Shown piece by piece: positions 19,046 to 40,161 of a stretch of 64,000 nt of DNA. Made by a program: the position numbers and the translations under genes. The stretch is taken from NCBI GenBank assembly GCA_036874045.1, contig CM072336.1, positions 17,727,001-17,791,000 on the forward strand. The letters are read 5' to 3'. The number at the start of each line of letters is the position of its first letter. Position 1 is the first letter of the stretch. The notes below the pieces were generated by a model. It was not told the origin of the DNA. It did not search any database and saw nothing but the letters and a program-made list of their open reading frames with translations. The stretch comes from Cymodocea nodosa. Lineage: Eukaryota > Streptophyta > Magnoliopsida > Alismatales > Cymodoceaceae.

Positions 19046-19196
19046 CTTTTAACCACGAACAAAACTTCGTCGATTTAGCAGTTACCAAAATTTGAAATTA
19101 ATAGTGGAACACGTACCCATAAAAACGGGAACCACGTGCACGTTGCAAGCCACATTCTTGCAACGAGATTTATTCACTTTATGAATGTGCAGTATA

Positions 19197-19205: not shown

Positions 19206-19363
19206 CAGAATGTTATTTACAAGTTACCAACACTTTTAAAAGAAAGGAGAATGCGTTGGAGGACCTGGAAGGAGAAGCAGCTGATTCAACTTCATCCGAC
19301 AACAAATATTTATTGAATGGAAAGCTTTAGACTAGTATGTAATTAATCTTTTGCTATTTATTT

Positions 19364-20895: not shown

Positions 20896-22032
20896 ATGGA
20901 ATGGATGCAATTACCGTTGGATGCACTAAGGGAAGTACTGAGTAACTTGTCAGCTAAAGATCTATGCAGGCTGTGTTGTGTATCAAAGGAAATTAAAGAC
21001 TGTATTGAAGAAAAATATTTTTAGGGACTACAAGCTACAAAAATGACTAAGATTAGAGATGGATTCATTTGGAGGTCATTTAATCGTAGTTCAATTAATC
21101 ATGAATATCTGGCTATGGAAGAAACTACTAGAATTTCACCCAATACATTAGAAGGAATAAATCATATTATGGGGATAGATGAAGGATTGATCATATACAG
21201 GACGAGACCAAGGTATGCAAGTTTATTACTTGATATTTTGATAAGAAATCCTATAACAAGAGAAGAATGGAATATGGGAAGACCTAATAGATATGAAGTA
21301 CCAACTATAAATTGTGGATCGGCTTTAATATTTTTTGATAAAAATTCTGCAATTCTTGAAAAATTATATTATTGGAGACCTACAGGAAATTGGGGTGAAG
21401 ATTTACGCTTAAGTGTGTATAATTTTCTGAATAAATCTTGGAATGAAAATATTATGATATATCTAGGATAGAAATCATTAATTAACCAAACACATGTCAT
21501 ACTTGATGGATATATATATCTAGTCACAGAGATATCAATAGCATATGAATCTGATTTATACATAGTGAGCATAGACAATTATGATGAATATATAGAAATT
21601 TTACCTATACCGAGAGAAATAGCTAAACCACCATCTGTAGAATGTAATGAAATTCAAATAGGAATGTGGTATAATGAAGAAGATGATCCTACTTTATGTC
21701 TGATAAGATGGTGGGATGAATTGCTGAAATTTCAAATATGGATTATGAAAGACATAAATGAATGGAAGTGGGAAGAGGAGTATATTGAAATAGATGTAGA
21801 AATAGAAACTGCTACATTACCCTGGAACCAAAAAGGATCCCTTTCTGCATTTCATATCATTAATGGTAATACACTTGTATTTGGAATTTATAATATATTA
21901 CATGTTTACAAATTAAGAAGGAACAAGAAATGCATTAAAACAGAATTAATAGCAAGAAGAACTATGCCTAAAAAGTTTGCTTGGACTGATACGTTTATTC
22001 CATTTGTTTCTACTTTTCAATCATGTTCTTAA
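20896..22032 (+). pseudogene. F-box gene copy carried by G1, two nonsense codons
   Basis: 1137 bp, exactly the length of the intact copy at 39025-40161 and collinear with it without any indel. The start is the ATG at 20896, reading LPLDALREVLSNLSAKDLC, the F-box that binds SKP1 in SCF ubiquitin ligases. The rest resembles an F-box-associated beta-propeller-like region (RNPITREEW, then the Trp-rich CLIRWWDELLKFQIWIMKD). Broken by TAG at 21022-21024 and TAG at 21469-21471; the second is a CAG (Gln) in the other copy. It lies between the capsid gag and the PPT, so it is cargo of the retroelement and not a flanking host gene. Confidence 0.85.
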
Positions 22033-23772
22033 GCTATGATTTTGTGTGTTTAATGTTGTGTGTATTCTACGTTTATGTTGTAAAAAAAAAAAAAAAATTG
22101 AAGTTTTCATGTTTATTTTATAAAAAAAAAAAACAAAATATCAATCTAGTTTGTTGGTATCTGTTCTGGGAAACCAATTGGCTTTCTTGTGAGCCACTAG
22201 AGGCATAGGAGCCTAGGTTCCATACAAGACACTGATTTATTAATATCTGTTAAGTGTTATTTTGTTTTATATTTTACTTTTATATGTGAATGAAAAGTTT
22301 TTCAGAATCAAAAATCGGAATATGCAAAAGGAGATACAAACGGAACAAGGTATGTAACCAATTACTTACCCTGAATTTTAAATCAAACAAAACTGTATTC
22401 ATGCCTACTACAATTACTGTACTTATTGTCAAATCTTTTACAATGAGGACAATGCAAAATGTAGGTATGGGGGGAGGTAATTAAAGTAACAGCCATGTAA
22501 GTTTGTTAATTAAAGGAATTAAAATGGTACTGCAAAGTTGTGGAAATTGAAAATTTTTATGAACTTGCTGTAACTATCTGATAATTGAGACTGTAAAATT
22601 TTTATAAATTGTAATTGCTTGAATGTTATATTTAGAAGGCTATATAAGATGCTATAGAATTTACTATTTATGCAAATTTAGATATAGTATCTTATGTTTT
22701 TTCTGAATTTCATGAGTTTAACAGTTTCACGATTTTAAAATGAAATCAAAATGCTTAATGAAAAATCAGTAAATTATTTGAAGTCTTAAAGGAGCTGAAA
22801 TATGAATTCTAGATTAAATGAAACATATATGATGAAAGATACATTTAATTTGACTGATTGAACTTGTAGAATGATTTATGTGTAGATCTTATTAAACTAC
22901 AAAAAAAATATGAGCTTATTGTTATGGATTCATATTTACAGTAAATGATAGAAGTAAGACTATATGAGATTGGTGTTTTACTGCATCTGTATTAATGAAA
23001 TACATACATATACAGTATGTGATTAATGTTTTGTTTTGTGTTTGTATTTTGAAAAAAAAAAGAAAAGAAATTTGAGAGTTTATTGATTTGTTTGATCACG
23101 AGCCATTTGTACTTGAGTAGATAGGTATGTAAGGATTGTTGACCTGAAAAAGGACTCTTGAAATTTGGCAACCTAAGATCTTGATCAAATCTGGGATTGT
23201 TGACTGAAAGCTCGTTACATGGGTACATTAGAAAGCTCTTGTATGATTCAAACTTGTCAAATTAAGTTTTAAAGTACAATATATATATATATATATATAT
23301 ACATATACTATTTTGAAAAGATACAAGTGTTTTGTGAAATACAGATATCTTATGAATCGAGTATATTTTCTGTTATCTAGAATTGCTGTAATATGAATCT
23401 AGAATTGACTTTTGAAGTTGTTTAATGGAGATACAATTCTTTATTCTACTTGTCTTAATCATATTGAATTGGATTGTACTTTGATTTGTATGTTGTTGAA
23501 ATTTCTTCTAGAAATCTTATTGGAAAATTTAGAATGGCAGATGATGAAAAGAGGAACAAACGATAATATAATTAACACCTATGTGATGATGATATACTTT
23601 GTATGTAATTTACATATATTCTAAGTATATTTGTAGGTTGATTACTGAAACATACAGAATATATATTCTTATGCTGAACAGAAGAAAAAAAAGAAAGAAG
23701 AAGAATTAATTCTAGCACTTTTTGAAAAACCAATTAATTAGATCTTAGTTTGCTAAGGGACTAGCAAACTTT
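22033..23772 (+). other. 3' noncoding region of G1
   Basis: No gene. Contains A-runs near 22081-22097 and 22122-22133, a (TA)n run at 23279-23300, and the conserved block at about 23070-23265 shared with G2 and the copia E1. GGTATGGGGGGAGG at 22462-22475 is a purine tract in addition to the one next to the LTR. Confidence 0.7.
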
Positions 23773-23786
23773 AGGTATGGGGGAAG
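23773..23786 (+). other. Polypurine tract of G1
   Basis: AGGTATGGGGGAAG immediately precedes the 3' LTR start (TGTTTAG). It primes plus-strand DNA synthesis in LTR elements. G2 has the same tract at 37238-37251 on the minus strand. Confidence 0.85.
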
Positions 23787-25851
23787 TGTTTAGAATGAAA
23801 AAGTGCATATTATTAATGGTTAAATGATGGTTAATTGCATAATATTTAGCTTATCATATGAGAATTAAGCCATTATGTTATAATTGCACTTTTATATGCT
23901 TTAATTAAAGAATCTACTTAATTTTGGGGAATTAATGTTAATTTAGTACATTTCTGAACTGTCGGTAAGTTGCAGGTTGTGAAATTCTTAAGTATCCAAA
24001 TTTTCTGATATTTTGGACAGTTATGTTTAACATACCAAACATATTTCGGACAGTTATGTTTAACAGACCGAACATATCGGATAGTTATGTTTAAATTGCC
24101 GAATAGTTATGTTTTGAAAGAATATTTTATTATTTTCTAAAGTACACGTGTCAAAACCATAATGCATGACTTAAGTGAACTTTCGGTGAGTTATCTATAA
24201 CTATTCAAAATTGTAGCTAAGTATCGGATAGTTAGACCTGTAACTCTCCAAAATGTTTATTTTGTTATTAAACTGCTACTGACACGTGTCGAAATCTGAT
24301 AGATTTACTTAAGTTATATATCGGTGAGTTATCTGTAACTATCCGAAATACATCTGAGCATCGGATAGTTAAGTTTGTAAGTATCTGAAATGCATCTGAG
24401 CATCAGATAATTAAATTTATGCATGTGTTTTATAGTTAAATCAACGAAGAAAGTTCGTTGAGTTATCTGTAACTTCATGGACTATTTATTTTCTAATATG
24501 CCACTGTAGCGGTTGTAGGAACAGATAGGGAAGAGAAAAACCACGTTTGCACGTAGCGTGCAGGAAGATGAAATCATCGCTGTTGATGTGAATGAAGGAA
24601 ATCCAACCGACCATTCAAGAAAAAGTAGTTACTACTAAAGAAATATAAAAGAAAAGAAGAAAAAGAAGAAAAGGGTGTGATCGATGAACGACCAGTGCAT
24701 ACAGAGGAGGAGAACCGAGCTTTCTGCAGACAGTATCGGCAATTCTCCAAAGTACCACACCAACTATCGTTACCACCACCATAATCACCAACCATCAGAG
24801 GTCTATGAGAATACTTTCTTGATGTCAGGTCGATTCCGAGCCAAATACAGTGCCTGACAACCACTGTGAGGAGTGATCGTGTCGCAGGAAGGGAAGCCAT
24901 TTTCACCAAGTGCCGACTCATATTTCAGGAGATCGTAAAACTTTTAGCCTTGGCTTTGGGTTGATGCCTGTATGTTGAAGAGGAGATCAACTTGCAATTC
25001 TGGACTCGCGATTCTATAGGGAGTGGAGACAAAATTGTAAGTGGTTTAATTTTCAATGGTGTAATCATATTGCAAGTAGTGATGGAAGTATTTACTGTCG
25101 AGTGAGATTACTTTACATTTCACCTTTCGCCCATTTCCATATTCATATTAAAACAAAAATACCAAAAACAATTTATATATGTTTGTATGTTGTCTTTGAG
25201 TGTTGTATTGTTTGTGTTGTATCGTGATTAATGTTATTTTTGTCAGTGTTGTGATTGTTTTATGTTTGTTTTAGTTTTACAGTTTACTAAAATTGGTTTG
25301 TTCAAAAGACTTAAAGATTTTAATGGTTACTATTTGAATTATCTGAATGTTAGTATGCTTAATGATAAATCTAGTGTTTACTAACATTAAAGAGCTTAAT
25401 TGATGTTATTTGCAATCTGTGGAATCGCCCAATGGTTGGCCGAATTCCTCTGTAAATAGCAATATTTAAAAAGAAGAGATAGGCTTGTGGAGTTAACTTA
25501 AGTCCACGAGGTTAGTCCGTTGAGTTAGCCATAACTCAACAAACTTTGTCCATTGAGTTAATTGTAATTCAACGGAGATCTTATTGAATATATAAATTTG
25601 ATTGTTAACAAACGAATAGTTCTCAAGTTCTTCAGCAATTACCTGTGGGATCGGCCTATACTTGCACACTAATACAATAGACACTATGCACTTGCAGTTA
25701 AATTACAAATTGGAATTAATATCTAAATTGTATTAAAGGTTGTTTGTTTAATTCTAAAAGAAAAAGAATAGGCATAAAGCTAAATTAACTAAGTAAAAAC
25801 AGAAGTAACAAATCAAAGTTTTTCTAGTGTCGTGTTGGGAAAATCCAAACA
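23787..25851 (+). repeat. 3' LTR of G1
   Basis: Same length as the 5' LTR (2065 bp). It repeats its palindromes (24185-24480 and 25500-25580), TATA box (24644) and GTAAGT donor-like site near 25036. Differences from the 5' LTR are mostly transitions. It ends ATCCAAACA against the C1 integrase gene. Confidence 0.93.
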
Positions 25852-26505
25852 GGGCTCTAGGAAAGGCAAATCTATGTTCTATTCCTAGATCTTGACAAAG
25901 TTTTTCCATCTTTTCATTTTCAAATTCCCCTCCATGATCACTCTTAATTTTCTGAACTTTCAATTGCTTTTCATTTTGAATCATATTCAGAAAAATTTTA
26001 AACTCCTCAAATACTTCACACTTATGTCTAAGAAATATTACCCAAGAATATCTTGAAAAATCATCAACTAGAACAAATACATATCTCTTACCACCTAAAC
26101 TTTCTATTCTAGTAGGGCCAAATAAATCCATGTGAATTAATTCCAAAATTCTTCTTGAAATAATTTGCTTTCCTGATTTAAAAGAACTCTTCTTCTGTTT
26201 TCCCAATTCACATGCGTCACAAATTTTATCCTTTTTAAATTTCAAATTTGGAAAACCATCTACTAGGTTCTTCTTAGCTAACTTATCTAGCTACTTCATA
26301 TGAATATGACCTAGTCTACGATGCCTTAACCATGCATTGTCTAAATTATTTTAAATTAAACAGGAATCAGTTAAAGAAACATCATCAGGTAAATTTAAAA
26401 AGCATACATCATTTCTTCTATGAGTAGTAAATTTAACTTCACTAGAGTTTTCATCAATAACAAGGCATTTCTTAGATTTAAACAAAACCATATAACCTTT
26501 ATCTT
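25852..26505 (-). pseudogene. Copia integrase N-terminal half and core, C1
   Basis: Reads left into the G1 insertion point. The HHCC finger is visible as RHRRLGH with CDACELGK, followed by the core with HMDLFGPTRIESLGGKRY (first catalytic Asp), VLVDDFSRYSW and SDHGGEFEN (second Asp), stopping at FPRA where G1 interrupts. The remaining part, with the third acidic residue region (QNGVVERKN), lies at 8798 and below. Stops near 26350 and 26290 break the finger region. In intact relatives the enzyme inserts cDNA into the genome. Confidence 0.9.
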
Positions 26506-26760
26506 CTAACTAAGTAATACTAATTAAATTATGTTCTAAATTTTCAACTAGTAAGACATTATCTATAACCATTTTATCATTTACATAAACAGATCCGATA
26601 CCAATAATCTTACCTTTCTGATCATTACCAAATCTGACATTTCCTCCATTCATCATCTTCAGGTCTTTTAGGACAGATTTATCTCCAGTCATATGCTTTG
26701 AAGCACCACTATCCATCACCCATCGTGATCTTTTAGTTTTGACCAACAAGGACAGTCATA
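26506..26760 (-). pseudogene. Copia aspartic protease, C1
   Basis: Open for 79 codons with the active site WVMDSGASKHMTGD near the start, then VRFGNDQKGKIIGIGSV and ENLEHNLISI, the standard copia protease layout. A stop at 26509 separates it from the integrase linker. It cleaves the Gag-Pol polyprotein in intact relatives. Confidence 0.85.
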
Positions 26761-28487
26761 ATCACATCCTTTGGTACCTATATTTTCATGGGTCCATTTT
26801 TGTTAATGGAAAATATTTGAAATCTATTTTGTTTTGAAATCCATGTGTTATTTCAATTAACAGTATTTTTTTTTAACACATAGATAACTTTCTCTTTATT
26901 AATTGTTTTCAAATAGCCATTTCCATAATCCATTTTATAGGTGTTTGAAAAATTAACAAAAGCATATGTTTTTGGTGGTTCATAGTTAAAACCTATACCA
27001 GTTCTATCACCAAAAACTTTATAACTATTAATAATATTTGTCAGTTTCTTATCTCCTTTAGTAAATGCTCCTAGTTTAAATTTTAGTCTACCAATTTTTT
27101 GTTCTAATTTTTCTATATCATTATTAGAGCTAGAATTTACAACACAATGATTTTTAAGATTTTCATTCAATTTTTTAATTTCATCTTGTAGCCTTTTGTT
27201 TTCTAAAAATTTATCCTTTAGTTCCTTAATAAGTTCTGAATTATATTTTTCAAGTTCAGACAGTTTTATTACTATTTGATAATTTTCTTTTTAACATAGA
27301 GTTTTCTAAACTAATATTTTTTAGTTCTTCCAATAATTCATTATAATTATCTTGATTTATATCAGATACATCAGAATCATTATCAAAAATAATTTCCTCA
27401 GCTCTATTAGGATCAGAATGTACCTCATTAGTATTAGCTATAAAGTAGACATTGGCTAGCTCTTTAGACTCGGACTCAGTCTGTGTACCATTAGTACTGG
27501 TACCCTCAAATGCTTCAGATTCTATAGAATCATCCCAAGTAACTTGGAATGCCTTCTTCTTTCCTTGATTAAATCTTCTTTGATGAAATTTCTATTTTCC
27601 ATGAGATTTCTTCTTGTCAAAATTCTTTCTTTCATCCTTCTTTTGATATGGGCATTGGCTCTGAAAATGCCCATATCTGTTGCAGTTGAAGCATTTTGTA
27701 GTAGATTGCTTCCCTTTATCATGACTTTTTCCTTTCTTCCAGAATTTTTTGTATTTTCTGATAATACAGGCCAATTCTTCTAAAAACTCATTAACAGACT
27801 CCTTAGATGGTTGTTGAGCTTTCAGTCCAAGCTCCTTTTCCTTTTCAACTTTCCTTGAGGTTTCTCCTTCCTCTTCTTTCCAGTCCTTTAGTTGAGTCTC
27901 ATAGGCTAACAGATTGCTAGTGAGATCTTCAAGAGTGAAAGTCCCATTTCCTTTGAATCTTGTAGGGAGGTAGCCTTAGCTTTCCAATCTTTATTCAGGC
28001 TTCTCAAGACTTTGATAACCTATTCTTTCATGGGAAATTCTTTCCCGAGACTCTTCAGTCCATTTATTATCTCAATGAAACAAGAAATGAGATCAGTGAT
28101 ACTCTCATTCTCTTTCATTTTAAACATTTCATATTTCCTCAATAGGATACTTATTTTTGTATCCTTCACCTCATTTGTTCCTTCATATGTAATTTCTAAT
28201 GCACGCCAAGCTTCATGTGCAGTAGAACAAGCAGAGATCTTGTTATATATATCAGCTATGATTGCACAAGTTAGTGCATTCATTCCTCTTGCATCCATTT
28301 GTATTTTCTTCTCATCTTCATCATTCCACATGTCTTCAGGAACATCTAGAAGTTGTATTCCATGAACCACTGCTCTCCATACCTTTACATCCATAGATTT
28401 TAAAAAATTAGTTATTTTATTTTTCCAAAAGCCATAATTATTTCCATCAAAGAGTGGAGGTCGGTGTACATGCTGACCCTCTACCAT
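26761..28487 (-). pseudogene. Copia gag of C1: capsid, zinc knuckle, coiled coil
   Basis: The likely start is the ATG at 28487, about 40 bp past the PBS, reading MVEGQHVHRPPLFDG and FWKNKITNFLKSMD (UBN2-type capsid). Capsid continues through ACSTAHEAWRALEITYEG to a TAG-type break near 28020. A zinc knuckle CFNCNRYGHFQSQC lies at about 27652-27692. Next come an acidic region and a Sirevirus-type coiled coil (IEKLEQKIGRLKFKLG, around 27100) and the FNYEPPKTYAFVNF stretch. Several frame changes (about 27960, 27590, 27300) and stops inactivate it. Confidence 0.85.
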
Positions 28488-28526
28488 TGATCTCAGATTG
28501 ATTAAATCTATTACAGAGATAACCAA

Positions 28527-28538
28527 GCTCTGATACCC
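28527..28538 (-). other. Primer-binding site of C1 (initiator tRNA-Met)
   Basis: On the minus strand GGTATCAGAGC follows the LTR end by two to three bases. This is the standard copia PBS complementary to the 3' end of initiator tRNA-Met. Confidence 0.85.
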
Positions 28539-28540
28539 CT

Positions 28541-30275
28541 TGAAAGGATTGAATGACACACTAGGGGGGGGTGAATAGTGTCCTAATAAAATTTATTTTG
28601 CTTTTAAAAACTTTGGAAGTTGTTGACACTAATGAACCCTGATTAACTGATTTTGGAATTAAACTATCAATGCAAAAAGTAAAGAACACAAAGAAATTTA
28701 TAGTGGTTCCCCAAACTGGGTAGTCCACTCCTCAAGGCCACAACCTCGAGAATTCTACTAAGTGCTTTTAAGGCTAAGCACAAACCTTAAACAAGTTGCT
28801 TTTGCAGGCTAAGCAACAACCTTACAGATGTTTTTAAAAGCTAAACAAAAACCTCACACAAAGCACCAACTTTGTGTACTCAAGACCCCAATCTTGAGCA
28901 AGTGAAGTATCACACTTCACTCTCTTCACCAAGGCCCCGACCTTGTGAAGGTATACTCACAACACCCTTGTGAGTTAAGGTTTTCAAGTAAATGAGATGA
29001 CAATTTAAACTCAGGAGTCATTGACTCAAAATAAAAATGACACAAAATACCAGATCAACTCCTATGAAGAGTAGACACAAAGGTTCTAAGGAGAATTCTT
29101 GATTGATCTGCAGCTGTTGATCTTCTGGACTTTGTTGTAGACGAATCTTCAAAGAGTTTGCAGAATTACTGAGCAGACAATTTCTCATTTTGAGTGTTGA
29201 AAAATTCTATGTGTGTCCTCTTACAGTTTTCTACAAAAATCCTTTTTATTTTTCCTTCGAGATTTGCATAAGTGGAAAGAATTCTAAAATGGTTAGATGA
29301 CTTATGTAGGAATTCATTTCCGGTAACCTTCAATCATAATAAAGTTGAGATTTGCAATCAAAAGATATCTTGCCACAAAGATTAGTCAATTAATAATAGT
29401 TGCAGTTTTTGTAAAAATAAAATCTTTGGAGGCTTTCAGAAAATTGAAGACTTAAACAGATAACCTGTCGAAACTCAAAATCATTTCGGATAGATAGAAC
29501 TAACATACCGAAAGACCACTTAAGTCATGCATTAAAAATGAAACATGTGTCCTTTAGAAACCGTGTTATAAAATATTAAAAAATAAACTATCCAATAGAG
29601 TGGACATGTTTCGGATACTTATAAAGATAATTCTCCGATCCTTAAGTCATTTCGGATAGTTACATAGGTAACCTTCCGAAAAGTCACTTAAGTCAGAAAA
29701 TAATAGAAAACTCAACCATCCGAAGCTTAAAATAGTTTTCAGATACTTACTGAAGATAACTCTCTAATTCTTAAGAGTTTTCAGATAGTTAAATCATAAC
29801 CTTCGGAAAAGTCACTTAAGTCAGGCGATGAGAGACTAACATGTGTCCTTCAGAAGAAAGTAACCGAAAATATATTAAAACAGAGAAACAGCTAACTCTC
29901 TAGAATAAAAACCTTAACTATCTGAAACCAAAGGGATTTTGGAGACTTACGATAAAAAATCATATCCAGACATAAAAAGACTTAACTCACTAAAGATAAT
30001 ACTTTTCGGATAGTTACTGATATAACCGTTCGAAAAGCTAGGAGAGAGAGACATAACCATCTGATTTGTCCTATTTTGTTCGGTGACTTATAAAATAACT
30101 CTCCGATCAATACACTATAGACAAAATAACCTGTCGAAATCTAATTTAAAAGATTTTGAGAACAAAGCAGTTAGCCAAAATTCATTTGAGTAAAAAGACA
30201 TCTAACATATAGCACAAATAATTAAACCACACGTTTTTCATCATCAAAATTAACTGATAAATAATTGAACTAACA
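28541..30275 (-). repeat. 5' LTR of C1
   Basis: On the + text it starts TGAAAGGATTGAATGACACA and ends ATTGAACTAACA. It is bounded by the PBS on the left and by foreign gag sequence (C2) on the right. It includes Cys-free direct-repeat-like phrases of AGGCTAAGCA type (28770-28870) and a palindrome field at about 29440-30150 (CGGATAGTTACATAGGTAAC followed by CTTCCGA, among others). Length 1735 bp. No second copy was recognised in the window. Confidence 0.75.
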
Positions 30276-30656
30276 ATATTTATGTACTAACATATTAATC
30301 TTAGATTCCTTGACCTGGTTAATACCTTCGTTGACAACTTCTAATGTATGCCATATCTCATATGCAGTTTAATATGCAGAAACTTTGTTAAATTGATCAT
30401 GAAATAAAGCACAAAATAAGATGTTTAAACCTTTAGCATTCAGTGTCATTCGCTCATTTTCATCAAAAGTCCAAGTATCATATGGAGTCGTAACTAATAC
30501 TATAGGATTGCTAATTATATGCCATAATTTGAAATCAATTGATTGAAAGAATACTTTCATCCTATATTTCTAGTAGCCATAATTGCCACCTTCGAACATA
30601 GAAGGACGATTTCTGGTCTATCCTTCAGTCATAACTAAGATTTTAGTATTATCCAT
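30276..30656 (-). pseudogene. Capsid gag 5' end of copia C2
   Basis: From ATG 30656 (MDNTKILVM) the frame reads RPSMFEGGNYGY, MKVFFQSIDFKLWHIISNP and TLNAKGLNILFCALFHDQF, then is cut at 30275 by the C1 LTR. It is a close match to the C4 gag at 54220-55027. Internal stops are present near 30362 and 30570. Its continuation should lie on the other side of C1 but was not found. Confidence 0.8.
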
Positions 30657-30785
30657 TTTAAACAGATGATCCTAAGTAAATGATAGGAAAAACTGATTCC
30701 TAAATAGAGAAATGAAAGCTCTTAATTATGATAAATGCTATGATACTAGTTGTAGTAGAGCGTAGGCAATCTAACAAAAATAAAT

Positions 30786-30797
30786 GCTCTGATGCCA
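30786..30797 (-). other. Primer-binding site of C2 (initiator tRNA-Met)
   Basis: Minus strand TGGCATCAGAGC, one mismatch from the canonical TGGTATCAGAGC, two bases from the LTR end. It fixes this LTR as the 5' LTR of a minus-strand element. Confidence 0.8.
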
Positions 30798-30799
30798 AT

Positions 30800-32058
30800 T
30801 GTAGGATTGTTGTATCACAAGAGGGGGGGTGAATTGTGTCTTTAGTAATTAAAATTACCAGCGAATAAAACAAGAGCACAAAACACTTGTAAATAAAATT
30901 CTATTCTTTATAAACTTTAAAGAAAGAATTTACAATATTTTTTCAACTCAATTCCCTTCTTGACAGTTTTGATACAGTAATATCCGATATACAATTCAAA
31001 TAGAAAATGAAGTCATTATTCAAAACTAATTTCGAATTGTATAAAACCTGATCTTTATGCACGTAGCTCATTTCTTTCTTTTTGCTTAGCTTTTATATCT
31101 CTTCTTCTCCAATTGTCGAATTTCCAGACTTCTTGCATTTGCAACTCCTTTTCTGAAATTGCTTGGAATTTCAAACTTCTTCTAATGTTGGAGAATTTTT
31201 CTAGATATGAATATTCATACTTGATTTTTCAATTTGGGATCTAGATTGAATATTTAGACTTGGTTTTTGAGATTGGGATCCTCATCGTAATGTAGCTCGT
31301 ACTCTCTATAAGTAGTCGAACTATGTCTTCACGTTCAACATGTTCATCCACTTAATCCATAATCCATGTACTAATTTCAAATTCAAATTATCCATGATTT
31401 CCACTATCTTTTTGAATTTCCATTATGTCCACTATCATTTTGAAATTTCCACTTTCTCCACTATCATTTTGAATTTCCACAATCTCCACTCGTAGATTTA
31501 CCGAAACTTTATCTTCCTAGAGTTTTGTAGAATATCTTCTAAGTCTTCATTTTAGTCGAACACTTATCCTTTAAGTCCTGTAAAAACTCAAACACTTATC
31601 TATAACTCTTCGAGTTTTTGCACCTACAAAACACATGACTGAACATAGAAAACTTATTTGTTCATTAGTCATTTTATAAAACTAGAACAGTTATCTATCC
31701 ATGCGTATAAAAACTCGAACAGTTATCTAACTCTTCGATTTTTATTATCAAGCGCACATGGAAACCACATGACAACTTAAAACATTAAAAACACACGTGC
31801 AGATAACTTAACTATACAAGTTTTTAACATAACTCTTCAACTAAATCAAAACGTTAACTATCCAAAAGTTTAACTATCTGAAAATCTAACTATACGAAAA
31901 CTTTAACTATCTGAAAGTTAACTATCCGAAATTTTAAATGAAACTTTTTGGTAACTTGTCAACATTTTAATTACGTGACTATTATACTTAGAAAATATTA
32001 TTTAGACTTATTTAAAAACTTTAATAAAGCATTTATCATCAAAACAAAATTCCTAACA
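30800..32058 (-). repeat. 5' LTR of C2 (LTR-X family)
   Basis: On the + text it runs from TGTAGGATTGTTG, followed by TATCACAAGAGGGGGGGTG, to AATTCCTAACA, the ends shared by the LTRs at 33218, 42377 and 55028 and, inverted, at 45711. It holds palindromes built on CGAACAGTTA and TAACTCTTCGA at about 31590-31930. Right neighbour is gypsy RT sequence, so C2 inserted into G3. Confidence 0.85.
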
Positions 32059-32212
32059 TTAAGCTAGTTTTAAGCTTGAAAAATGATTCTTTACAATTTT
32101 TATCAAAGTTAAATGAGACATCTTTTAATAGATTAGTTAAAGGTCTAGCTATTTTGCTAAAATCTTTTATAAAATCTAGCATGTCCTATAAATGATCTAA
32201 TATCTTTTATAT
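32059..32212 (-). pseudogene. Gypsy RT fragment of G3
   Basis: Minus-strand reading DIRSFIGHARFYKRF then, after a short deletion, LTNLLKDVSFNFDKNC, matching the G1 RT connection region at about 13690-13850 (DIRSFLGHAGFYRRF). About 50 codons survive. It abuts an LTR of the same family on its right, so several kilobases between 5' LTR and RT are missing. Confidence 0.8.
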
Positions 32213-33217
32213 TGGAGTTTATAAGTGTTCAATTAAGCACTCCGTTGAGTTACAGTTAACACAACGGACTTAGTTCGTGGAGTTATGGTTAACTCAATGG
32301 ACTAACCTTGTAGACTTAAGTTAACTCCACGAGCTTATCTTTCTAGTTAAATACTGCTATTTACAGAGGAATTTAGCCAATCATTGAGTGATTCCACATA
32401 ATGAAAATAACATCAATTAAGTTCTTTATTGTTAGTTAATATTAGATTTGTCATTAAGCAAGACTAACATTCAAATATTTCAAATAGTAACCATTAAAAT
32501 CTTTAAGTATCTGAAACGAATCAATTTCAGTAAACAATAAAACTATTTTCTATTTTCTGAATCAAACAGACATAAAACATTCACAATACTGACAATGATA
32601 ACATTAATCACGATACAAAACTAATAATACAACACTTTAATACTAAATGTAAACACAAATAATTTGTTGTTTTTGGTATTTTTGTTTTGATATGTTCTTA
32701 AGCATGAGCGAAAGATGAAATGTAAAAATCTCTATTGATAGTAAAAACTTCTATCACTACATGCGATGTGATTACACCACTGAAAACTTAATCAGTTACA
32801 ATCTTACCTCCTCTCCCTATAGAATCATGAATTAAAAATTGTAAGATGATCTCTTCTTCAGCATACTAGCATCAACTCGAAACCAAGGCTAGAAGCTTTA
32901 CAATCTCCTAAGATATGAGTCGGTGCTTGGTGAAAATGGCTTCCCTTCCTACGATGCAATCACTCCTCACAGTGGTTGTTAGTCACCATGTTTGGCTTGA
33001 AATCGACCTGACATCTAAAAAGTATCCTCACAAACCTCCAATGGTTGGTGATTTTGATGGTGGTGTCTAGCTTCAAGGAACTTTCGACGCTTCCTGTAGT
33101 TGGCGCAGTTCTCCACACACTTTTTCACAGTCTTTTTCTTCGTCTCTTATATTTCTTTCAGTAGTAACTGCTTCTACTTAAATGATCAGTTGGATTTTCT
33201 TCATTCATATCAACGAT
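32213..33217 (-). repeat. Truncated G-family LTR (G3)
   Basis: Aligns with 35440-36490 of the G2 LTR, including the palindromes CCGTTGAGTTACAGTTAACA and CTCAATGG near 32240-32330 and the antisense frame starting ATGAGTCGGTGC at 32926. It is cut on the right by LTR-X of C3 at 33218 and fused on the left to RT sequence. The remaining third of the LTR is not present next to C3. Confidence 0.8.
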
Positions 33218-34406
33218 TGTAGGATCGTTGTGTCACAAGAGGGGGGTGAATTATGTCTTTAGTAATTAAAATTACCAACGAATAAAATAAGAGCACAAAA
33301 CACTCATAAATTAAAATTCTATTCTTTATAAACTTTAAAGAAAGAATTTACAATATCTTTTTAGCTTAATTCCCTTGTTGTCGATTTTGATACAGTAATG
33401 TCTGATATACAATTCAAATAGAAAATGAAGTCCTTATTCAAAGTTAATTTCGAATTGTATAAAACCTGATCTTTATGCACATAGCTCCTTTTCTTTCTTT
33501 TTGCTCAACTTCTATATCTCTTCTTCTCCAATTGTCGAATTTCCAAACTTCTTGTGTTTGCAGCTCTTTTTCTAAAATTGCTTGGACTTGCAAACTTCTT
33601 CTGATGTTGGAGAATTTTTTTAGATATGAATATTCAGACTTGATTTTTCAATTTGTGATTGGGATTCGGATTGAATATTAAGACTTGGTTTTTGAGATTG
33701 AGATCGTCATTATAACGTAGCTCGTACTCTCTATTAATAGTCAAACTTTGACTTCACATTCAGCATGTTCATCCACTTAATCCATAATCCACGTACTAAA
33801 TTCAGATTCAAATTATCCACGATTTCCACTATCATTTTGAAATTTCCACTTTCTCCACTATCATTTAGAATTTCCACGATTTCCACTTGTAGATTCACCA
33901 AAACCTTATCTTCCTGGAGATTTGTAGAATATCTTCTAAGTCTTCATTTTAGTCGAACACTTATCCTTTAAGTCCTATAAGAACTCGAACACTTATCTGT
34001 AACTCTTCAAGTTTTTGCACCTACAAAACACGTGACTGAATAAGGAAAATTTATCTATTCGTTAGTCATTTTATAAAACTCGAACAGTTATCTAACTCTT
34101 TGATTTTCATTACCGAACGCACATGGAAAACGCGTGACAACTTAAAACATTAAAAACACACATGTAGATAACTTAACTATACGAGTTTTTAACATAACTC
34201 TTCGACAAAAACAAAACGTTAACTATCTGAAAATCTAACTATCTAAAAACTTTAACTATCCGAAAGTTAACTATTTCAAATTTTAAATGAAACTTTTTGA
34301 TAACTTGTCAACATTTAATTACGTGACTATTATACTTAGAAAATATTATTTAGACTTATTTATAAACTTTAATAAAGCATTTATCATCAAAACAAAATTC
34401 CTAACA
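33218..34406 (-). repeat. 3' LTR of C3 (LTR-X family)
   Basis: Starts TGTAGGATCGTTG and ends ATTCCTAACA on the + text, 1189 bp, followed at once by ATCTCCCCCTTTTTGATGAT. That is the reversed polypurine tract, so this is the 3' LTR of a minus-strand copia. Confidence 0.85.
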
Positions 34407-34730
34407 ATCTCCCCCTTTTTGATGATGTCAAAACCTAATAAGTCAAATAATCTATCTTCTCCCCCTTTTTGGCATTATAAAAAAGTAAATAAAATGTAAG
34501 GAAGAAAAACTTGCTAAGTATATATCATTGAAAAAGACATTTTTAAACATGCATAACTTTCGTGGATAAGAATAAACTATTTAAATAAAACTGTTTGAAA
34601 GAAAATTTATCAAAAACAAGTATATGATCATTAAATGTAGTAAACAATTTACATAATGCGATTGCTTTACATAAGTAATTTTTGGTAACAAATTACAATA
34701 AATAAATCATGCAATACATAATTTGTATAA
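34407..34730 (-). other. Polypurine tract and 3' untranslated DNA of C3
   Basis: Minus strand AAAAAGGGGGAGAT at 34407-34420 touches the LTR; a second AAAAAGGGGGAGA occurs at 34459-34472. Multiple purine tracts ahead of the 3' LTR are a Sirevirus trait. The rest is AT-rich with no gene. Confidence 0.7.
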
Positions 34731-35143
34731 TCACAAGCCTTTTTGTCTTCAAAAAGTATTTATTAGAGTATCTGAAATTTGCTTTGCAATTTCTGTACTT
34801 ACATTGTTTATTTGATCAATTATTACTTGATCTAAATCTACCTATGAAACTTGTGATGGTTGTTGTAAAAATTCTGTATTTATGTTTGTATGTAAATCTG
34901 TATGTGTATCTATATGTATACGTGTATTTGTATCTGTATGTTGCTATTGTTCTGAAAACTATGTCGATTGTTGCTACTGTTGTTGTGATTGAGTTTGCCG
35001 ATCCTATTTTTGTTGTTGCTGCCGAATTACAAGTGTATCTGCTTCTTGGTATTTTTGTAGTTCCTTTGCAGAGAAAGATCTTGACTTTAATCTTTTCTAT
35101 GGCCAAGGTGTAATATCTGTTTGACTTACCACAATTCTCAAAA
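34731..35143 (-). pseudogene. aORF C-terminal fragment of C3
   Basis: Reads from the truncation at 35143 (VVSQTDITPWP) through RSFSAKELQKYQEADT, a Gln-rich stretch, a threonine/histidine repeat tail (HTDTNTRIHIDTHTDLHTN) and NTEFLQQPSQVS to a stop at 34731. It is the same C-terminus as the aORFs at 43868 and 56540. Broken by several stops and joined abruptly to gypsy leader DNA at 35144. Confidence 0.75.
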
Positions 35144-35213
35144 GTGTATTGTTTAGGTTTTTAGGCAGCATTAGAGAACTTGTTTAGTTCCCCAGCAATG
35201 GCGCTAGAAAACT
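35144..35213 (-). other. 70-bp gypsy leader with PBS on the outer side of the G2 LTR
   Basis: The minus strand reads AGTTTTCTAGCGCCATTGCT then GGGGAAC, the tRNA-Asp-type PBS, directly after the LTR end, then about 40 bp of leader before aORF sequence resumes. A PBS here, on the side away from G2's body, means this LTR once also served as a 5' LTR. Confidence 0.75.
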
Positions 35214-37237
35214 TGTTTGTGTATTTGTTAACTTCTATCTTCAACTTGTTTAATTTGTCTTTATGCTTATATCAATAATTTCTTTTAGAAGTAGACAAAC
35301 AACCTTTCACACAAATTACATATTAATTCCAATTTGTATTTTAACTATAAGTGCATAGTGTATATTGTATTTGTGTGCAAGTACAGGTCGATCCCATAGA
35401 GAATTGAGTAAGAATTGTGTACTATTCTGTTTTTTTTATATTAGACTTAATGTGTTCAGTAGTCACTTCGTTGAGTTACAGTTAACACAATGAACTAAGT
35501 TCGTGGAGTTATGGCTAACTCAACGGACTAACCTCATGGACTTAAGTTAACTCCACGAGCCTATCTTTCCAGTTTAATGCTGTTATTTACAGAGGAATTC
35601 GGACAACCATTGGGTGGTTCCATAGATTGTAAATAACATCAATTAAGCTCTTTAATGCTATTTAATATTAGATTTATCATTAAGTAACATTCAAATATTT
35701 CAAACAGTAACCATTAAAATCTTTAAGTATCTGGAATGAATCAATTTCAGTAAACTATAAAACTATTTTCTATTTTCTGAATCAAACAAACATAAAACAT
35801 TCACAATATTGACAATGATAACTTTAATCACGATACAAAACAAACAATACAACACTTAAATACTAAATATAAACACAGATAAGTTGTTTTTGGTATTTTT
35901 GTTTTGAGATGTTCATGAAAATGGGCGAAAGGTGAAATGTAAAAATTCTCTATCGATAGTAAATACTTCTGTCACTACATGCGATGCGATTACACCACTA
36001 AAAGCTTAATCACTTACAATCCTACCTCCTCTCCCTATAGAATCGCGAGTCCAAAATTGCAAGATGATCTCCTCTTCAGCATACTGGCATCAACCTGAAA
36101 CTAAGGCTAGAAGCTTTACGATCTCTTGAGATATGAGTCGGTGCTTGGTGAAAATGGCTTCCCTTCCCACAACGTGATCACTCCTCACAGTGGTTGTTAG
36201 GCACCGTGTTAGGCTTGGAATCGACCTAACATCAAAAAAGTATCCTCACAGACCTCCGATGGTTGGTGATTATGGTAATGTTGGTGATGTTGGTGAATTG
36301 TTGGTGATGTTGTAGATGCTTTAGTGAACTTCTAATGCTTCCTACAGTTAGCACGGTCCTCCACCTTTACACACATTGCCACACATTGCCAACCACACTT
36401 TCTTCATTTTTTCTCCTCTTCTTTTATATTTCTTCAATAGTAACTATTTCTACTTTAGATGATCGGTTGGATTTTCTTCATTTAAATCAATGATGGTGAT
36501 TTCTTCTTCCTTCCACAAGTGAATTCCTACGTGATACGTGCAATCGTGGTTTTCCGTCGAATGTCCTGTTTCTGTAACCGCTACAGTGGCATATTAGAAA
36601 ATAAATGGTCCGTGGAGTTACAGATAACTCAATGAACTTACTTTTTTGATTTAACTATAAAACATGTGTAATAAAGAAATAAGTTGCTAACATAACGTGT
36701 TACCTTAGTGTGTATTCATGTAACTCAACACGTACAGTTATGCTAACTTAACAAGTTAAACATGTGCATCTCACGTGATATACTAAAGCATTTAAATTTA
36801 ACGCGTGCATAATTCTAATTTAACAAGTTCAAATATTTTGGATACTTACGAACCTAACTATCCGATGCCTAGATGCATTTCGGATAGTTAGCAGATAACT
36901 TACCGAAAATCCACTTAAGTTATGCATTATGATTTCAACACGTGTACTTTAGGAAATAATAAAATATTCTTTAAAACATAACTGTCTGGTACATTAAACA
37001 TAACTTTCCGAAATAATAGAAAATTCGGATACTTAAGATTTTCACAACCTGCAATTTACCAATAGTTCAGAAATGTACTAAATTAACATTAATTCCCTGA
37101 AATTATGTAGATTCTTTCATTAAAGCATATAACAGTACAATTATAACATAATAGCTTAATTCTCATATGATAAGCTAAATATTATGCAATTAACCATCAT
37201 TTAACCGTTAATATTATGCACTTTTTCATTCTAAATA
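35214..37237 (-). repeat. LTR of G2, flanked by both PPT and PBS
   Basis: 2024 bp, homologous to the G1 LTRs (TGCACTTTTTCATTCTAAAT at the PPT end, with one change in the terminal TG, and TGTTTGTGTATT at the other). It contains the palindromes at 35480-35560 and around 36610-36960 and a retained GTAAGT near 36017-36022 on the minus strand. Confidence 0.85.
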
Positions 37238-39024
37238 CTTCCCCCATACTTAAATTTTGCTAGTCCCTTAGCAAACTAAGATCTAACTAGTTGGTCATTC
37301 TAAAGTGTTAGAATTAATTCTTCACTTAGTTCTTTTTCAGAATACATAATTTAGATTACTATATAGATATTCTATATTTTTCACTAATCTGTTTTGACTT
37401 TGCTTTCTCCTCTTCAACCTGCAAATATATTTAGAATATATGTAAATTACATACAAAATACATTAGCATCACATAGGTGTTAATTATATTATCATTTCTT
37501 TTTCTTTCTTTCTTTTTTCTTTTTTTCTTTTTTTTTTAGCATCTATCATCCTGAATTTTCCAAAATGATTTCCAGAATAAATTTCAACTACATACGAATC
37601 AAAACACAATCCAATTCAATATGATTAAGACAAGTAGAATAAAGAATTATATCTCAAATAAACAACTTCAAAAGTCTATTCTAGATTCATACTTCAGCAA
37701 TTTTAGATAACAGAAAATATACTCGATTCAAAACATATCTGTATTTCACAAAACACTTGTATCTTTTCAAAACAATATATACATATTTGTACTTTAAAAG
37801 TTAATTTGACAAGCTTGAATCATACAAGAGCTTTCTAATGTACCCATGTATCGAGCTTTCAATCAACAATCCCAGATCTGATCAAGATCTTAGGTTGCTA
37901 GATTTAAAGAGTCCTTTTTCAGGTCAACAATCCTTACATACCTATTTGCTCATATACAAAAGGCTCGTGATCAAACAAGTCAATAAACTCTCAAAGTTTT
38001 TTTTTTTTTTTTACACTCACAATATATATACATATTTCATTAACACAGATGCAATAAAACAAAAATCTCATATAGTCTTGCTTCTATAATTTACTGAAAA
38101 TATGAATCCATATCAATAAGCTCATACTTTTTCTATAGTTTAATAAGCTCTACACATAAATCATTCTACAAGTTTAATCAATCAAATTAAATGTATCCTT
38201 GATCATATGTATTTCATTTAATCCAAAATCAACATTTCAGCTCTTCCAGGATTTCAGATAATTTATTGAGTTTCAGTTAAGCATTTTCTTTTTTTAAAAT
38301 CATGAAACTATTAAACTCATAAAATTCAGCAAAAACATAAGATACTATATCTAGATTTGTATGAATAATAAAATTTGTAGCGTCTTATATAAGATTATAA
38401 ATATAACATTCAAGCAGTTACAGTTCTTAAAAATTTTACAGTTTCAATTATTAGATAGTTATAGCAAATTCTTGTTCAAAAAATTTTCAATTTCCACAGA
38501 TAGAACTTTTGCAGTACCATTCTAATTCCTCTAATTAACAAAATTACATAGCTGTTACTTTAATTACCTCCCCCCCATACCTACATTTTGCATTGTCCTT
38601 AATGTAAAAGATTTTACAATAAATACTGTAATTGTAGCAGGCATGAATATTATTTCATTGACTTAGCATCTAACTCAACGAACTTAGTTGAAATGTAAAT
38701 TCAGGATAAGTAATCAATTACATACCTTGTCCTTTTGTATCTCCTTCAATATCTTTTGATTTTTGATTCTGAAAAACTTTTTCATTCACAAATAAAAGTA
38801 AAATATATAACAACTTAAATTGTTAAATTAGTGTCTTGTGTGGAACCCAGGCTCCTATGCCTTTGGTGGCTCACAAGTAAGCTAATTGGTTTCCCAAAAC
38901 AGATACCAACAAACTAGATTGATATTTTGTTTTTTTTTTTTATAGAATAAAACTAAAACTAAAATTTTCCCTTCTCTAAAAAAAATGCAGAATACAGACA
39001 ACATTAAAAGCACAGAATCATAGT
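37238..39024 (-). other. 3' noncoding region and PPT of G2
   Basis: The PPT is minus strand GTATGGGGGAAG next to the LTR. 37400-38560 is the noncoding block shared with G1 and E1 (core 37808-38000). CCTCCCCCCCATACC at 38568-38582 mirrors the extra purine tract in G1. A C/T-rich run lies at 37498-37540. No gene. Confidence 0.75.
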
Positions 39025-40161
39025 TTAAAAACATGATTGAAAAGTAGTAACAAATGGAATAAACGTGTTAGTCCATGCAAACTTTTTAGGCATAATTCTT
39101 CTTGCTATTAATTCTGTTTTAATGCAATTGGATTTCCTTTTTAGCTTGTAAACTTGCAGTATGTTATCAATACTAAATATAAGTGTATTACTATTAATGA
39201 AATGAAATGCAGAAAGGGATCCTCTTTTGTTCCAAGATAATGTAGCTGTTTCTATTTCTACATCTATTTCAATATATTCTTCTTCCCACTTCCATTCATT
39301 TAGGTCTTTCATAATCCATATTTGAAATTTCTTCAATTCATCCCACCACCTTATCAGACATAAAGTAGGATTATCATATTCATTATACCACATTTCCAAT
39401 TGAATTTTATCATATTCTGAAGATGGTGATTTAGCTATATCACTAGGTATAGGTAATATTTCTATAAAATCATCGTAACTGTCTATGCTTACAATGTATA
39501 AATCAGATCTAAATGCAACTGATATATCTATGACTAGATATATATATCCATCAAGTATGACATGCATGCTGTTAACTAATGCTTTCTGTCCTAGATATAT
39601 CATAGTATTTTTAATCCAAGATCTATTTAGAAAATTATACACACTTAAGCATAAATCTTCATCCCAATTTCCATTTGGTCTCCAATAATATAATTTTTCA
39701 GGAATTGTCAAATTTTTATTAGAAAATATTAAAGCTGACCCACAATTTTCAGTTGGTACTTCATATCTATTAGGCCTTCCTATATTCCATTCTTCTCTTG
39801 TGATAGGATTTCTAATCAAAATGTTGGGTAACAGAATTGCATACCTTGGTTTGGTTTTGTATATAATTAATCCTTCATCCATCCCCATAATATGATCTAT
39901 TCCTTCTAATGTATTGAGTGGAATTCCAGTAGTTTCTTCCATATTTAAATATTCATAGCAGATTGAACTACGATTAAATGACTTCCATAAAAATCCATCT
40001 CTAATCTTAGTCATTTTTGCAACTTGTAGTCCATGAAAATATTTTTCTTTGACATAGTCTTTGATTTTCTTTGATACACAACACAATCTGCACAGATCTT
40101 TAGCTGACAGGTTACTAAGTACTTCCCTTAGTGCATCCAATGGTAATTTCATCAATTCCAT
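39025..40161 (-). CDS. Intact F-box protein gene carried by gypsy G2
   Basis: 378 codons, uninterrupted, starting at the ATG 40161. Residues 4-45 are an F-box: LPLDALREVLSNLSAKDLC, then LCCVSKKIKDY, the surface that docks on SKP1 in SCF E3 ubiquitin ligases. Residues about 60-370 resemble an F-box-associated substrate-binding region: RNPITREEWNIGRP, repeated hydrophobic strands, WWDELKKFQIWIMKD and EEEYIEIDVEIETATLSW. No signal peptide or membrane segment, so probably cytosolic or nuclear. It sits between the capsid gag and the PPT of the element. The homologous G1 copy has the same length and two nonsense codons. The substrate is unknown; the family assignment rests on pattern recognition only. 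Confidence 0.8.
   Translation of the reverse strand: MELMKLPLDALREVLSNLSAKDLCRLCCVSKKIKDYVKEKYFHGLQVAKMTKIRDGFLWKSFNRSSICYEYLNMEETTGIPLNTLEGIDHIMGMDEGLIIYKTKPRYAILLPNILIRNPITREEWNIGRPNRYEVPTENCGSALIFSNKNLTIPEKLYYWRPNGNWDEDLCLSVYNFLNRSWIKNTMIYLGQKALVNSMHVILDGYIYLVIDISVAFRSDLYIVSIDSYDDFIEILPIPSDIAKSPSSEYDKIQLEMWYNEYDNPTLCLIRWWDELKKFQIWIMKDLNEWKWEEEYIEIDVEIETATLSWNKRGSLSAFHFINSNTLIFSIDNILQVYKLKRKSNCIKTELIARRIMPKKFAWTNTFIPFVTTFQSCF

Follow-up and report, generated by a model that had tools for sequence, protein, structure and literature searches.

An F-box gene as a probable accessory gene of an Athila-like Ty3/gypsy retroelement family

Introduction

Plant LTR elements are usually viewed as gag plus pol, sometimes with an env-like or unknown ORF in addition. 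In a 64,000-nucleotide stretch of Cymodocea nodosa DNA (the window), the same F-box gene occurs twice beside a capsid gag gene, in the sequences designated G1 and G2. This raises the question of whether the F-box gene is a scrap of host sequence or a gene that belongs to the retroelement, and if the latter, what its product might do.

Results

Anatomy of the G1 element

The F-box gene of G1 sits inside a 17-kb LTR element (8799-25851, plus strand; Table 1) with the hallmarks of Ty3/gypsy elements: an LTR pair, an internal region, a polypurine tract and, as judged by eye, a primer binding site. By eye the primer site also resembles what we take to be the tRNA-Asp type of Athila elements; ARAGORN found no tRNA genes in the window. 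As a candidate target site duplication, the flanks of G1, GAGCT and GGGCT, agree at 4 of 5 positions, and a copia paralogue gives the empty site only roughly. The CX2CX4HX4C motif that opens the 5′ coding part was the sole one in G1. Reverse transcriptase and RNase H precede integrase, as in the Ty3/gypsy order, and G1 pol showed 52-67% identity among the 120 pol proteins listed, for which the list names no lineages. The capsid gag, recognised in two pieces by PF03732 (8.3e-5 and 5.3e-5, barely below the curated cut-off), is split from pol and lies 3′ of integrase, an order that is itself unusual. The sequence-only reading that drew attention to this locus had not noted the LTRs that enclose the element, the presence of pol upstream of gag, or how many copies there are.

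Table 1. Positions of the G1 element, G2 and related features in the window
Feature	Position	Strand	Remarks
3′ tail piece, third and more distant copy	623-1549	-	matches the tails of G1 and G2 at 73-76%
G1 5′ LTR	8799-10863	+	2065 nt; 93.5% identity to 23787-25851, 134 differences, ungapped
G1 putative primer binding site	10871-10888	+	7 nt past the LTR; judged by eye
CX2CX4HX4C zinc finger	11025-11066	+	start of 5′ coding part; six-frame scan
Protease ORF	11969-13150	+	PF13650 2.2e-4, slightly under cut-off; DLGAS motif at 12158
Reverse transcriptase end, RNase H, integrase	13415-15379	+	RVT_1 4.4e-8, RT_RNaseH 1.8e-25, rve 2.7e-14
ORFx region, uncharacterised	16188-18410, limits approximate	+	broken in G1
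22-bp palindrome, three copies	18873-19011	+	ahead of gag
G1 capsid gag	19484-20592	+	broken; downstream of pol and immediately ahead of the F-box gene; without zinc finger
G1 F-box gene	20896-22032	+	same gene as in G2; two in-frame internal TAG
Second polypurine-tract-like copy	22454-22476	+	3′ of the F-box gene; repeat of 23764-23786
Polypurine tract	23764-23786	+	adjoins the 3′ LTR
G1 3′ LTR	23787-25851	+	paired with 8799-10863
Deleted further copy	32058-33215	-	LTR piece fused to reverse transcriptase piece; matches 9593-10608 and 13680-13842
G2 3′ LTR	35177-37235	-	76% to the G1 LTR
G2 F-box gene	39025-40161	-	open ORF, 378 codons / 378 aa
G2 capsid gag	40565-41606	-	broken

Pfam gave no match for a 134-aa piece of ORFx in G1 (17729-18130) or for an ORFx-related ORF at 56912-57733, and the assignment of ORFx to a known plant transposon domain was rejected on this ground. 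The ORFx region matched 57532-57242 at 40% (tblastx), and related sequence in the window, here called family X, has an ORFx-like ORF and does not match G1 in pol. The 22-bp palindrome recurs in the LTRs and before ORFx, with half-sites before the F-box gene. The view that relic LTRs form the leaders ahead of gag, ORFx and the F-box gene was rejected on shuffle and coding controls: without its motif block the pre-gag leader scored 57 versus 53.5 for shuffles, and the three leaders with the motif scored 140, 79 and 64 versus shuffle means of 100, 54 and 55, with a coding control likewise higher (131 versus 106). The idea of a structured RNA in the conserved sequence 3′ of the F-box gene was dropped (z -0.99), and nothing in an Rfam scan of the window reached the gathering score.

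The F-box gene in the window and across the genome

The coordinates given for both 1137-nt genes in the sequence-only reading proved exact, as did the open frame of G2 and the two TAG codons of G1, and the common placement that it described was seen again, with gag on the 5′ side and polypurine tracts on the 3′ side. The two genes were 87% identical across 1137 nt with zero gaps in a pairwise alignment, so the absence of indels between them also held, despite the disruption of both adjacent gag genes at differing positions. In tblastn of the product against the whole window, only G1 and G2 gave a meaningful E-value; no F-box was found beside the tail piece at 623-1549.

A gene confined to these two loci would have spoken against that reading, but at least 109 full-length copies of the F-box gene were found by protein match in the host genome (374.6 Mb). 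Its estimate that the frame had survived one or more rounds of copying was an understatement. All 109 scored matches span from residue 3 or earlier to residue 375 or later, at 86-91% identity, G2 itself excepted; 11 of them have no internal stop and 98 have at least one. Among 70 fetched loci, which are the best protein matches and hence a choice favouring open and conserved frames, gag or the spacer lies 5′ in 63 and the tail 3′ in all 70. In the aligned set (n=71), which shares this bias, the median divergence was 7.5% (maximum 13.9%) and length changes were solely multiples of 3; the ATG is retained in 69 of the 71 copies, and a splice-acceptor-like site is present in 55 (counted without a control).

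The upstream 10 kb of six other copies was inspected. The order pol, ORFx, gag and F-box gene was found in three of them (L074, L075 and L076) and is interrupted in the remaining three; ORFx was found in L072 as well as in these three. G1 shares the order with L074, L075 and L076, whose reverse transcriptase-integrase part is 91-94% identical to its own.

Domains and relatives of the product

PF00646 (F-box) was detected in the G2 product (E 4e-11, 42.8 bits versus a curated cut-off of 20.5) and in the first piece of the G1 product (E 3.6e-12). The domain score that had been proposed as a check was thus obtained, and as the genome has 109 or more full-length copies, the match is not due to chance. 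The FBA domain, also proposed, did not follow: PF07734 reached 13.8 bits versus a cut-off of 21.1 (18.2 in a G1 piece), and TIGR01640, an F-box-associated domain, gave 2.7e-6 and 4.7e-6 with 26.9 bits, under the curated 37.9. Since both remain under their curated cut-offs, a full assignment was withheld and the C-terminal half of the product is called FBA-like only. A model of the 64-residue F-box had a pLDDT of 65, and its first eight structure matches in the PDB, with a best E of only 0.95, were in F-box protein entries, the chain identities being inferred from entry titles; among them is cyclin F, which we take to be an F-box protein. A model of the full-length product (pLDDT 35) was discarded.

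The protein search returned no relatives of the single F-box sequence at E 1e-3 (1028 candidates) or of the F-box profile at E 10 (3854 candidates). This search depends on shared words, and a missing match therefore does not mean that a host parent gene is absent. By sequence, the PDB gave a single chance-level match for the product (E 0.53) and none for the profile, and IMG/VR held no relative of the product.

Selection on the F-box ORF

Between G1 and G2, 0 indels were observed where 11.5 were expected, and 2 stops versus 9.6 expected (P 0.003). The dN/dS corrected for mutation bias was 0.58, and 0 of 1000 simulations were that low; codons 190-252 look neutral. Simple dN/dS also came to 0.46 in two wrong frames, one of them sense and the other antisense. 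Because wrong frames reach this value, simple dN/dS was dropped as proof of constraint; the case relies instead on simulation, on shifted frames and on singletons, each with its own limits.

The ORF carries 0.24 indels per kb; in its flanks, compared with G1, there are 20-32. In 68 copies, the counts of nonsynonymous to synonymous variants (N/S) fell from 333/98 among singletons to 30/31 among variants in at least 16 copies. With all variant types, amino-acid changes were depleted among shared variants in both shifted frames too (ratio 0.52, P 3.7e-4; 0.66, P 0.034), compared with 0.44 in the true frame. For transitions, the comparison of variants in at least 6 copies with singletons gave P 1.4e-4 in the true frame versus P 0.18 and 0.31 in the shifted frames; set directly against the shifted frames, common transitions in the true frame were borderline (P 0.052). 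Fixed differences between two subfamilies were 4 nonsynonymous and 5 synonymous versus 333/98 among singletons (P 0.036), a test that gave P 1.0 and 0.69 in shifted frames, that rests on 9 sites and that loses significance when only transitions are counted (P 0.48). Variants of the F-box domain in 3-5 copies showed the opposite trend, 13 to 2 (N to S). Taken together, the tests favour constraint on the F-box ORF, with part of the signal inflated by the protein-based choice of copies. The neutrality check put forward in the sequence-only reading did not refute it: the copies appear non-neutral, the trends in shifted frames and the protein-picked sample being caveats.

Discussion

We consider it probable that the F-box gene is no scrap but is resident, as an accessory gene, in a large Athila-like Ty3/gypsy family, and that it encodes a putative SCF substrate receptor. 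The observations behind this are the anatomy, the copy number, the order shared by G1 and three other copies, the F-box score and the signs of constraint. The element would read zinc finger, protease, reverse transcriptase, RNase H, integrase; ORFx; capsid gag; F-box protein. A plant F-box gene may have been captured by the element, and the protein could be produced through splicing or an internal promoter. Its N-terminal F-box most likely docks it on the host SKP1-CUL1 ubiquitin ligase, where SCF assembly would be expected; the FBA-like half might bind a host or element protein, and removal of this protein by the ligase would help the element to multiply. A bolder version strikes us as quite unlikely: the family would have adapted a host F-box gene as an SCF adaptor that, over much of the family's past, strips away a restraining protein, possibly of the silencing machinery, with the capsid gene cut loose from pol and a shared palindromic regulatory site marking the genes and both LTRs.

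With at least 109 copies and signs of constraint, the host-type F-box gene would place this family among the rare plant retroelements whose accessory function can be named. The cargo also offers a direct handle, namely identification of the protein that its product binds. If the target restrains transposition, the hijacking of ubiquitin ligases by viruses would extend to resident elements. How capsid is supplied when it is not fused to pol is a further question, raised by the split gag order.

The gene could instead be passive cargo, captured once from the host by a master element and copied along, its ORF still recognisable through recent amplification. The stops in 98 of the 109 scored copies and the part of the N/S trend that recurs in shifted frames agree with this, and host genes are commonly captured by LTR elements, the captured genes of rice being described as mostly under non-purifying selection; those of sorghum are more often under purifying selection than those of rice (PMC3726574). 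Against it, the 71 copies, a biased sample, have diverged by a median of 7.5% and up to 13.9% with length changes in threes, whereas indels reach 20-32 per kb in the flanks, and the true frame loses amino-acid changes among common variants more than the shifted frames do. We regard passive carriage as unlikely. As to origin, the 3′ half with gag and the F-box gene may come from a pol-less relative, so that G1-type elements would be chimeric and their gag order a by-product. This is a serious possibility, against which we lean slightly. Arabidopsis has pol-less Athila families in which selection maintains gag and env, as well as inter-family chimeras (PMC2410132), and family X combines an ORFx-like ORF with the lack of a pol match to G1. 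On the other side, G1 has this order in common with L074, L075 and L076, whose reverse transcriptase-integrase parts are 91-94% identical to its own, and any recombination must therefore be old and the chimera must itself have spread. A chimeric history bears on the origin and not on the function of the F-box gene.

Two further proposals give the product a specific target. Like polerovirus P0, it may remove ARGONAUTE or another silencing factor, a step from F-box cargo to host silencing that is taken solely by analogy with P0. P0, an F-box protein, promotes the decay of AGO1, which is also acted on by FBW2, an F-box protein of plants (PMC11371168); plant elements encode anti-silencing proteins such as VANC (PMC5735166). 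However, plant F-box proteins have many targets and no sequence feature here indicates AGO, and we hold this role to be very unlikely. Still less probable, in our view, is that the product turns over the gag or integrase of the element and so times assembly or nuclear entry. The position of the gene directly behind a gag that is physically split from pol would suit such a role, but position does not equal function.

Among known systems, as represented in the accessible text of the sources cited below, the Athila/Calypso/Diaspora lineage of plant Ty3/gypsy elements is one of the closest to the present family. Its elements likewise have a CX2CX4HX4C finger, a DLGAS motif and a primer site a few bases past the LTR, several of them carry an additional ORF downstream of pol, and in Diaspora the gag core, zinc finger, protease and pol form one ORF in that order (PMC1142308, PMC2410132). 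In G1, by contrast, the gag core is located about 8 kb downstream of the zinc finger, 3′ of integrase, and is followed by the F-box gene. The Athila arrangement, with the gag core upstream of the finger and pol in one polyprotein, was absent from G1, L074, L075 and L076, and because the gag core lies 3′ of integrase the family is called Athila-like rather than canonical Athila. The pol-less Athila families, where purifying selection acts on gag and env, resemble the present family in the keeping of element-borne genes and in recombination chimeras, but the extra gene here is an F-box gene and not env, and pol is present in G1 and in 3 of 6 further copies (PMC2410132).

Plant LTR retrotransposons carry additional ORFs, such as env-like genes, Grande gene23 and Retand TRP28, several of which are antisense, whereas the F-box gene is in sense orientation (PMC7264820, PMC11963269). 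No F-box gene is among the additional ORFs in the accessible text of these two articles, and the word occurs 0 times in that of PMC11963269. No retroelement family with a resident F-box gene was found in the literature covered, mostly open-access articles judged largely by title or abstract, preprints excluded. P0 is likewise an F-box protein of a mobile genetic element, but of an RNA virus, and the likeness is by analogy (PMC11371168). In the VANC/VANDAL21 system, as here, a single element family has repeated copies of a short motif in its non-coding parts, but the class of element is different (PMC5735166). Host-type genes also reside in LTR elements as captured genes, for instance in Bs1 and the rice and sorghum sets (PMC7264820, PMC3726574, PMC8764390). 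Another case is TaChr6G576 of Thlaspi arvense, an LTR-captured gene of the F-box family like the cargo here; what is described there is the tandem duplication of one gene and not an element family carrying an F-box gene (PMC8764390). Captured genes are said to occur once or in a few copies (PMC7264820, PMC3726574, PMC8764390), whereas the F-box cargo of the present family is found in at least 109.

Structure of the G1 element and its gene order

G1, one of the two F-box-bearing copies in the window (G1 and G2) of a Ty3/gypsy element family, was flanked on both sides by a copia element, and a copia paralogue at 63.3 kb represents a site without G1, with an imperfect alignment. GAGCT and GGGCT adjoin the G1 LTRs. 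At rates of 7e-9 to 1.3e-8 substitutions per site per year, the LTR divergence of 6.5% roughly dates the G1 insertion to about 2.5 to 5 million years ago. The putative G1 primer site presumably resembles that of Athila elements, which is of the tRNA-Asp type. The RNase H-integrase piece of G1 had 7970 protein matches; among the 120 listed, identity was 52-67% and every organism-named protein was of plant origin.

The capsid gag of G1 is located 3' of the integrase. Only approximately 140 nt separate the primer site from the finger, too few for a capsid there, and no finger was found in the capsid gag. Gene order was assessed in the upstream 10 kb of six other F-box copies (L071-L076). Three of them (L074, L075, and L076) had the order protease, RT-INT, ORFx (an ORF region without a Pfam match in the piece searched), gag, and F-box gene, with RT-INT 91-94% identical to that of G1. 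L072 had ORFx and gag with other sequence in between, its stretch ending short of the pol region, and L071 and L073 had other sequence 5' of the pre-gag leader within the 10 kb. Because this order is common to G1 and three other copies, it is not peculiar to a single copy, and the family is therefore called Athila-like rather than canonical Athila.

Features of the G1/G2 family and other repeats in the window
Feature	Position	Strand	Remark
G1 LTR pair	8799-10863 and 23787-25851	+	2065 nt each, 134 site differences, no indel
G1 CX2CX4HX4C finger	11025	+	after primer site
G1 protease, DLGAS motif	12158	+	after finger
G1 RT end, RNase H, integrase	to 15379	+	after protease
G1 ORFx region	16.2-18.4 kb	+	3' of integrase
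G1 capsid gag	19484-20592	+	after ORFx, directly before F-box gene
G1 F-box gene	20896-22032	+	two internal TAG
G1 polypurine-like repeat	22454	+	3' of F-box gene
G1 polypurine tract	23764	+	after polypurine-like repeat
G2 F-box gene	39025-40161	-	open, 378 codons
Palindrome sites	9469, 10531, 10564, 15916, 15982, 18873, 18925, 18990, 24457, 25519, 25552		
Palindrome sites, G2	35470-36633, 41950-42088		
Core decamer, further sites	210, 4197-4270		
R repeat, five copies	30799-32058, 33216-34406, 42376-43572, 45710-46931, 55027-56216		1.2 kb
Copia element	48065-53344		ends 95% identical, pol ORFs up to 435 aa

The R repeat is tied to family X, whose ORF is related to the G1 ORFx; one R copy lies inverted inside an X copy, and no second R was found at the other end of family X in the window.

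The F-box gene and its copies in the genome

The sequence-only reading had located both F-box ORFs exactly, including the two TAG codons of G1 and the open frame of G2. The absence of indels that it claimed was borne out by a gap-free alignment (145 differences across 1137 nt; 297/378 identical residues), and both gag ORFs were indeed broken, at different places, directly 5' of the F-box gene. PF00646 (F-box) matched the G2 product at 4e-11 (42.8 bits; cut-off, 20.5), as that reading would lead one to expect, and the first 42-residue piece of the G1 product at 3.6e-12. The C-terminal half is named FBA-like (F-box-associated) because its scores fall below the curated cut-offs for TIGR01640 (2.7e-6 in G2 and 4.7e-6 in a G1 piece) and PF07734 (0.055). 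A 64-residue model placed three helices across the F-box. The first eight PDB matches to this model lay in F-box protein entries, but with E values of 0.95 to 2.4. The full-length structure model was set aside as useless.

A search of the host genome (374.6 Mb, 28 contigs) with the F-box protein gave at least 109 scored matches, each spanning at least residues 3 to 375, so that the gene is not limited to two loci. This number, which excludes G1, is a lower bound, since only part of 7041 first-look candidates was scored. No internal stop was present in 11 of the 109. Among the fetched loci, all selected via the F-box and thus representing family members with the gene, gag or spacer (gag-to-F-box) sequence lay on the 5' side in 63/70 and tail (3') sequence on the 3' side in 70/70; gag itself was visible in 24 of the 30 with flanks long enough. 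In one locus (L016), a stretch of less than 4 kb held two F-box genes in tandem, of which the second had a gag end and a spacer of its own. Eleven copies of equal open-frame length with a TAA stop lay on one strand within 1 Mb (G000 C2, ~8.75-9.71 Mb), and the three fetched were at least 99.5% identical; this cluster is perhaps a DNA-level duplication of a dead copy and not transposition.

Start region and a shared palindrome

The F-box ORF started with ATG in 69/71 copies, and YAG resembling a splice acceptor, a loose pattern scored without a control, occurred within 25 bases before the start in 55/71. A 22-bp palindrome, GTTGAGTTA-N4-TAACTCMAC, was present in both LTRs, before ORFx, and before gag, and half-sites preceded the F-box gene. 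The window contained 34 exact matches to the core decamer of the palindrome (0.07 expected), nearly all within the G1/G2 family. When one mismatch was allowed, the decamer lay 30 to 150 bases 5' of the ORF in 64/71 copies, compared with 15/1420 shuffled stretches. Apart from this motif, the pre-gag leader and the LTR had nothing in common above shuffles. We read the palindrome as a putative shared regulatory site. The G2 tail (38690-38660) has an insertion of roughly 31 nt relative to G1 that contains the decamer, as if the motif could spread by itself. Behind the F-box gene, about 120 nt (22130-22250, 38815-38935) showed 93% G1-G2 identity compared with a tail average of 87%, and no stable fold was found there.

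Constraint or passive copying

The F-box gene might be a resident accessory gene of the element, or passive cargo merely copied along with it. Between G1 and G2, the non-coding flanks showed 28 indel runs over 2769 nt, a rate at which 11.5 would be expected in the ORF, where none was observed; this baseline varies with the region chosen, because the G1 LTRs have no indels in 2065 nt. Under the mutation pattern of the flanks, simulation predicted 9.6 stops against 2 observed (P = 0.003), and replacements were milder than neutral expectation (P = 0.005). A dN/dS well below 1, which the sequence-only reading named as support for function, was seen in part: the value was 0.41, or 0.58 after mutation-bias correction, with 0/1000 simulations as low, but simple dN/dS was also 0.46 in two wrong frames. 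By codons, it was 0.36 (1-50), 0.30 (64-126), and about 1.1 (190-252); the first and second pieces of gag gave 0.88 and 0.29.

Comparison of rare and common variants in 68 copies needs no outside baseline. Singletons had nonsynonymous/synonymous counts of 333/98, compared with 65/48 for variants present in 6-15 copies and 30/31 for those in at least 16; within the F-box domain, the counts were 41/13 (singletons), 13/2 (3-5 copies), and 1/9 (at least 16). Relative to singletons, variants in at least 3 copies had a ratio of 0.44 (P = 1.3e-6) in the true frame, but the two shifted frames also gave 0.52 (P = 3.7e-4) and 0.66 (P = 0.034), so mutation accounts for part of the trend. With transitions only (singletons versus at least 6 copies), the true frame kept its signal (P = 1.4e-4) and the shifted frames did not (P = 0.18 and 0.31); true versus shifted frames among common transitions was borderline (P = 0.052). 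Fixed differences between subfamilies of 11 and 57 copies (4 nonsynonymous, 5 synonymous) differed from singletons (P = 0.036), with no signal in shifted frames or, at two sites, with transitions only. The distance to G1 was 0.122 for the ORF, compared with 0.143 for the spacer and 0.141 for the tail (63/66 copies measurable), the ORF being lower than the spacer in 49/63 and the tail in 55/63; indels per kb were 0.24, 32, and 20, respectively. The choice of copies by protein similarity is biased towards open frames, which accounts for part of the difference in indels and stops; the comparison of rare with common variants suffers less from this bias but does not escape it. Taken in full, the shifted-frame controls slightly lower the confidence in a resident gene and slightly raise that in passive cargo; on balance, a resident accessory gene is the somewhat favored reading, and passive cargo is rather unlikely.

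Discussion

Because flanks on both sides are shared in 63/70 loci, the resident gene would descend from one capture and would since have long been part of the element, where it shows signs of constraint. These signs appear clear in the F-box domain and just behind it; an adaptor of the SCF ubiquitin ligase would need that domain. Polerovirus P0 and plant FBW2 are F-box proteins described as able to lower AGO1 (PMC11371168); no finding of the present sequence analysis points to AGO as a target.

In open-licence literature, mostly at the level of titles and the start of abstracts, no retroelement family with a resident F-box gene was found, and the nearest case is a single gene of the F-box family captured by an LTR element in Thlaspi arvense (PMC8764390). 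The palindrome has a parallel in kind in the VANC targets of VANDAL21 (PMC5735166). Diaspora, a related element, encodes its gag core, the same finger, protease, RT, and integrase in a single ORF (PMC1142308), whereas G1 has its capsid gag 3' of the integrase. LTR elements with an accessory ORF are already known; unusual here are the kind of gene and the gene order.
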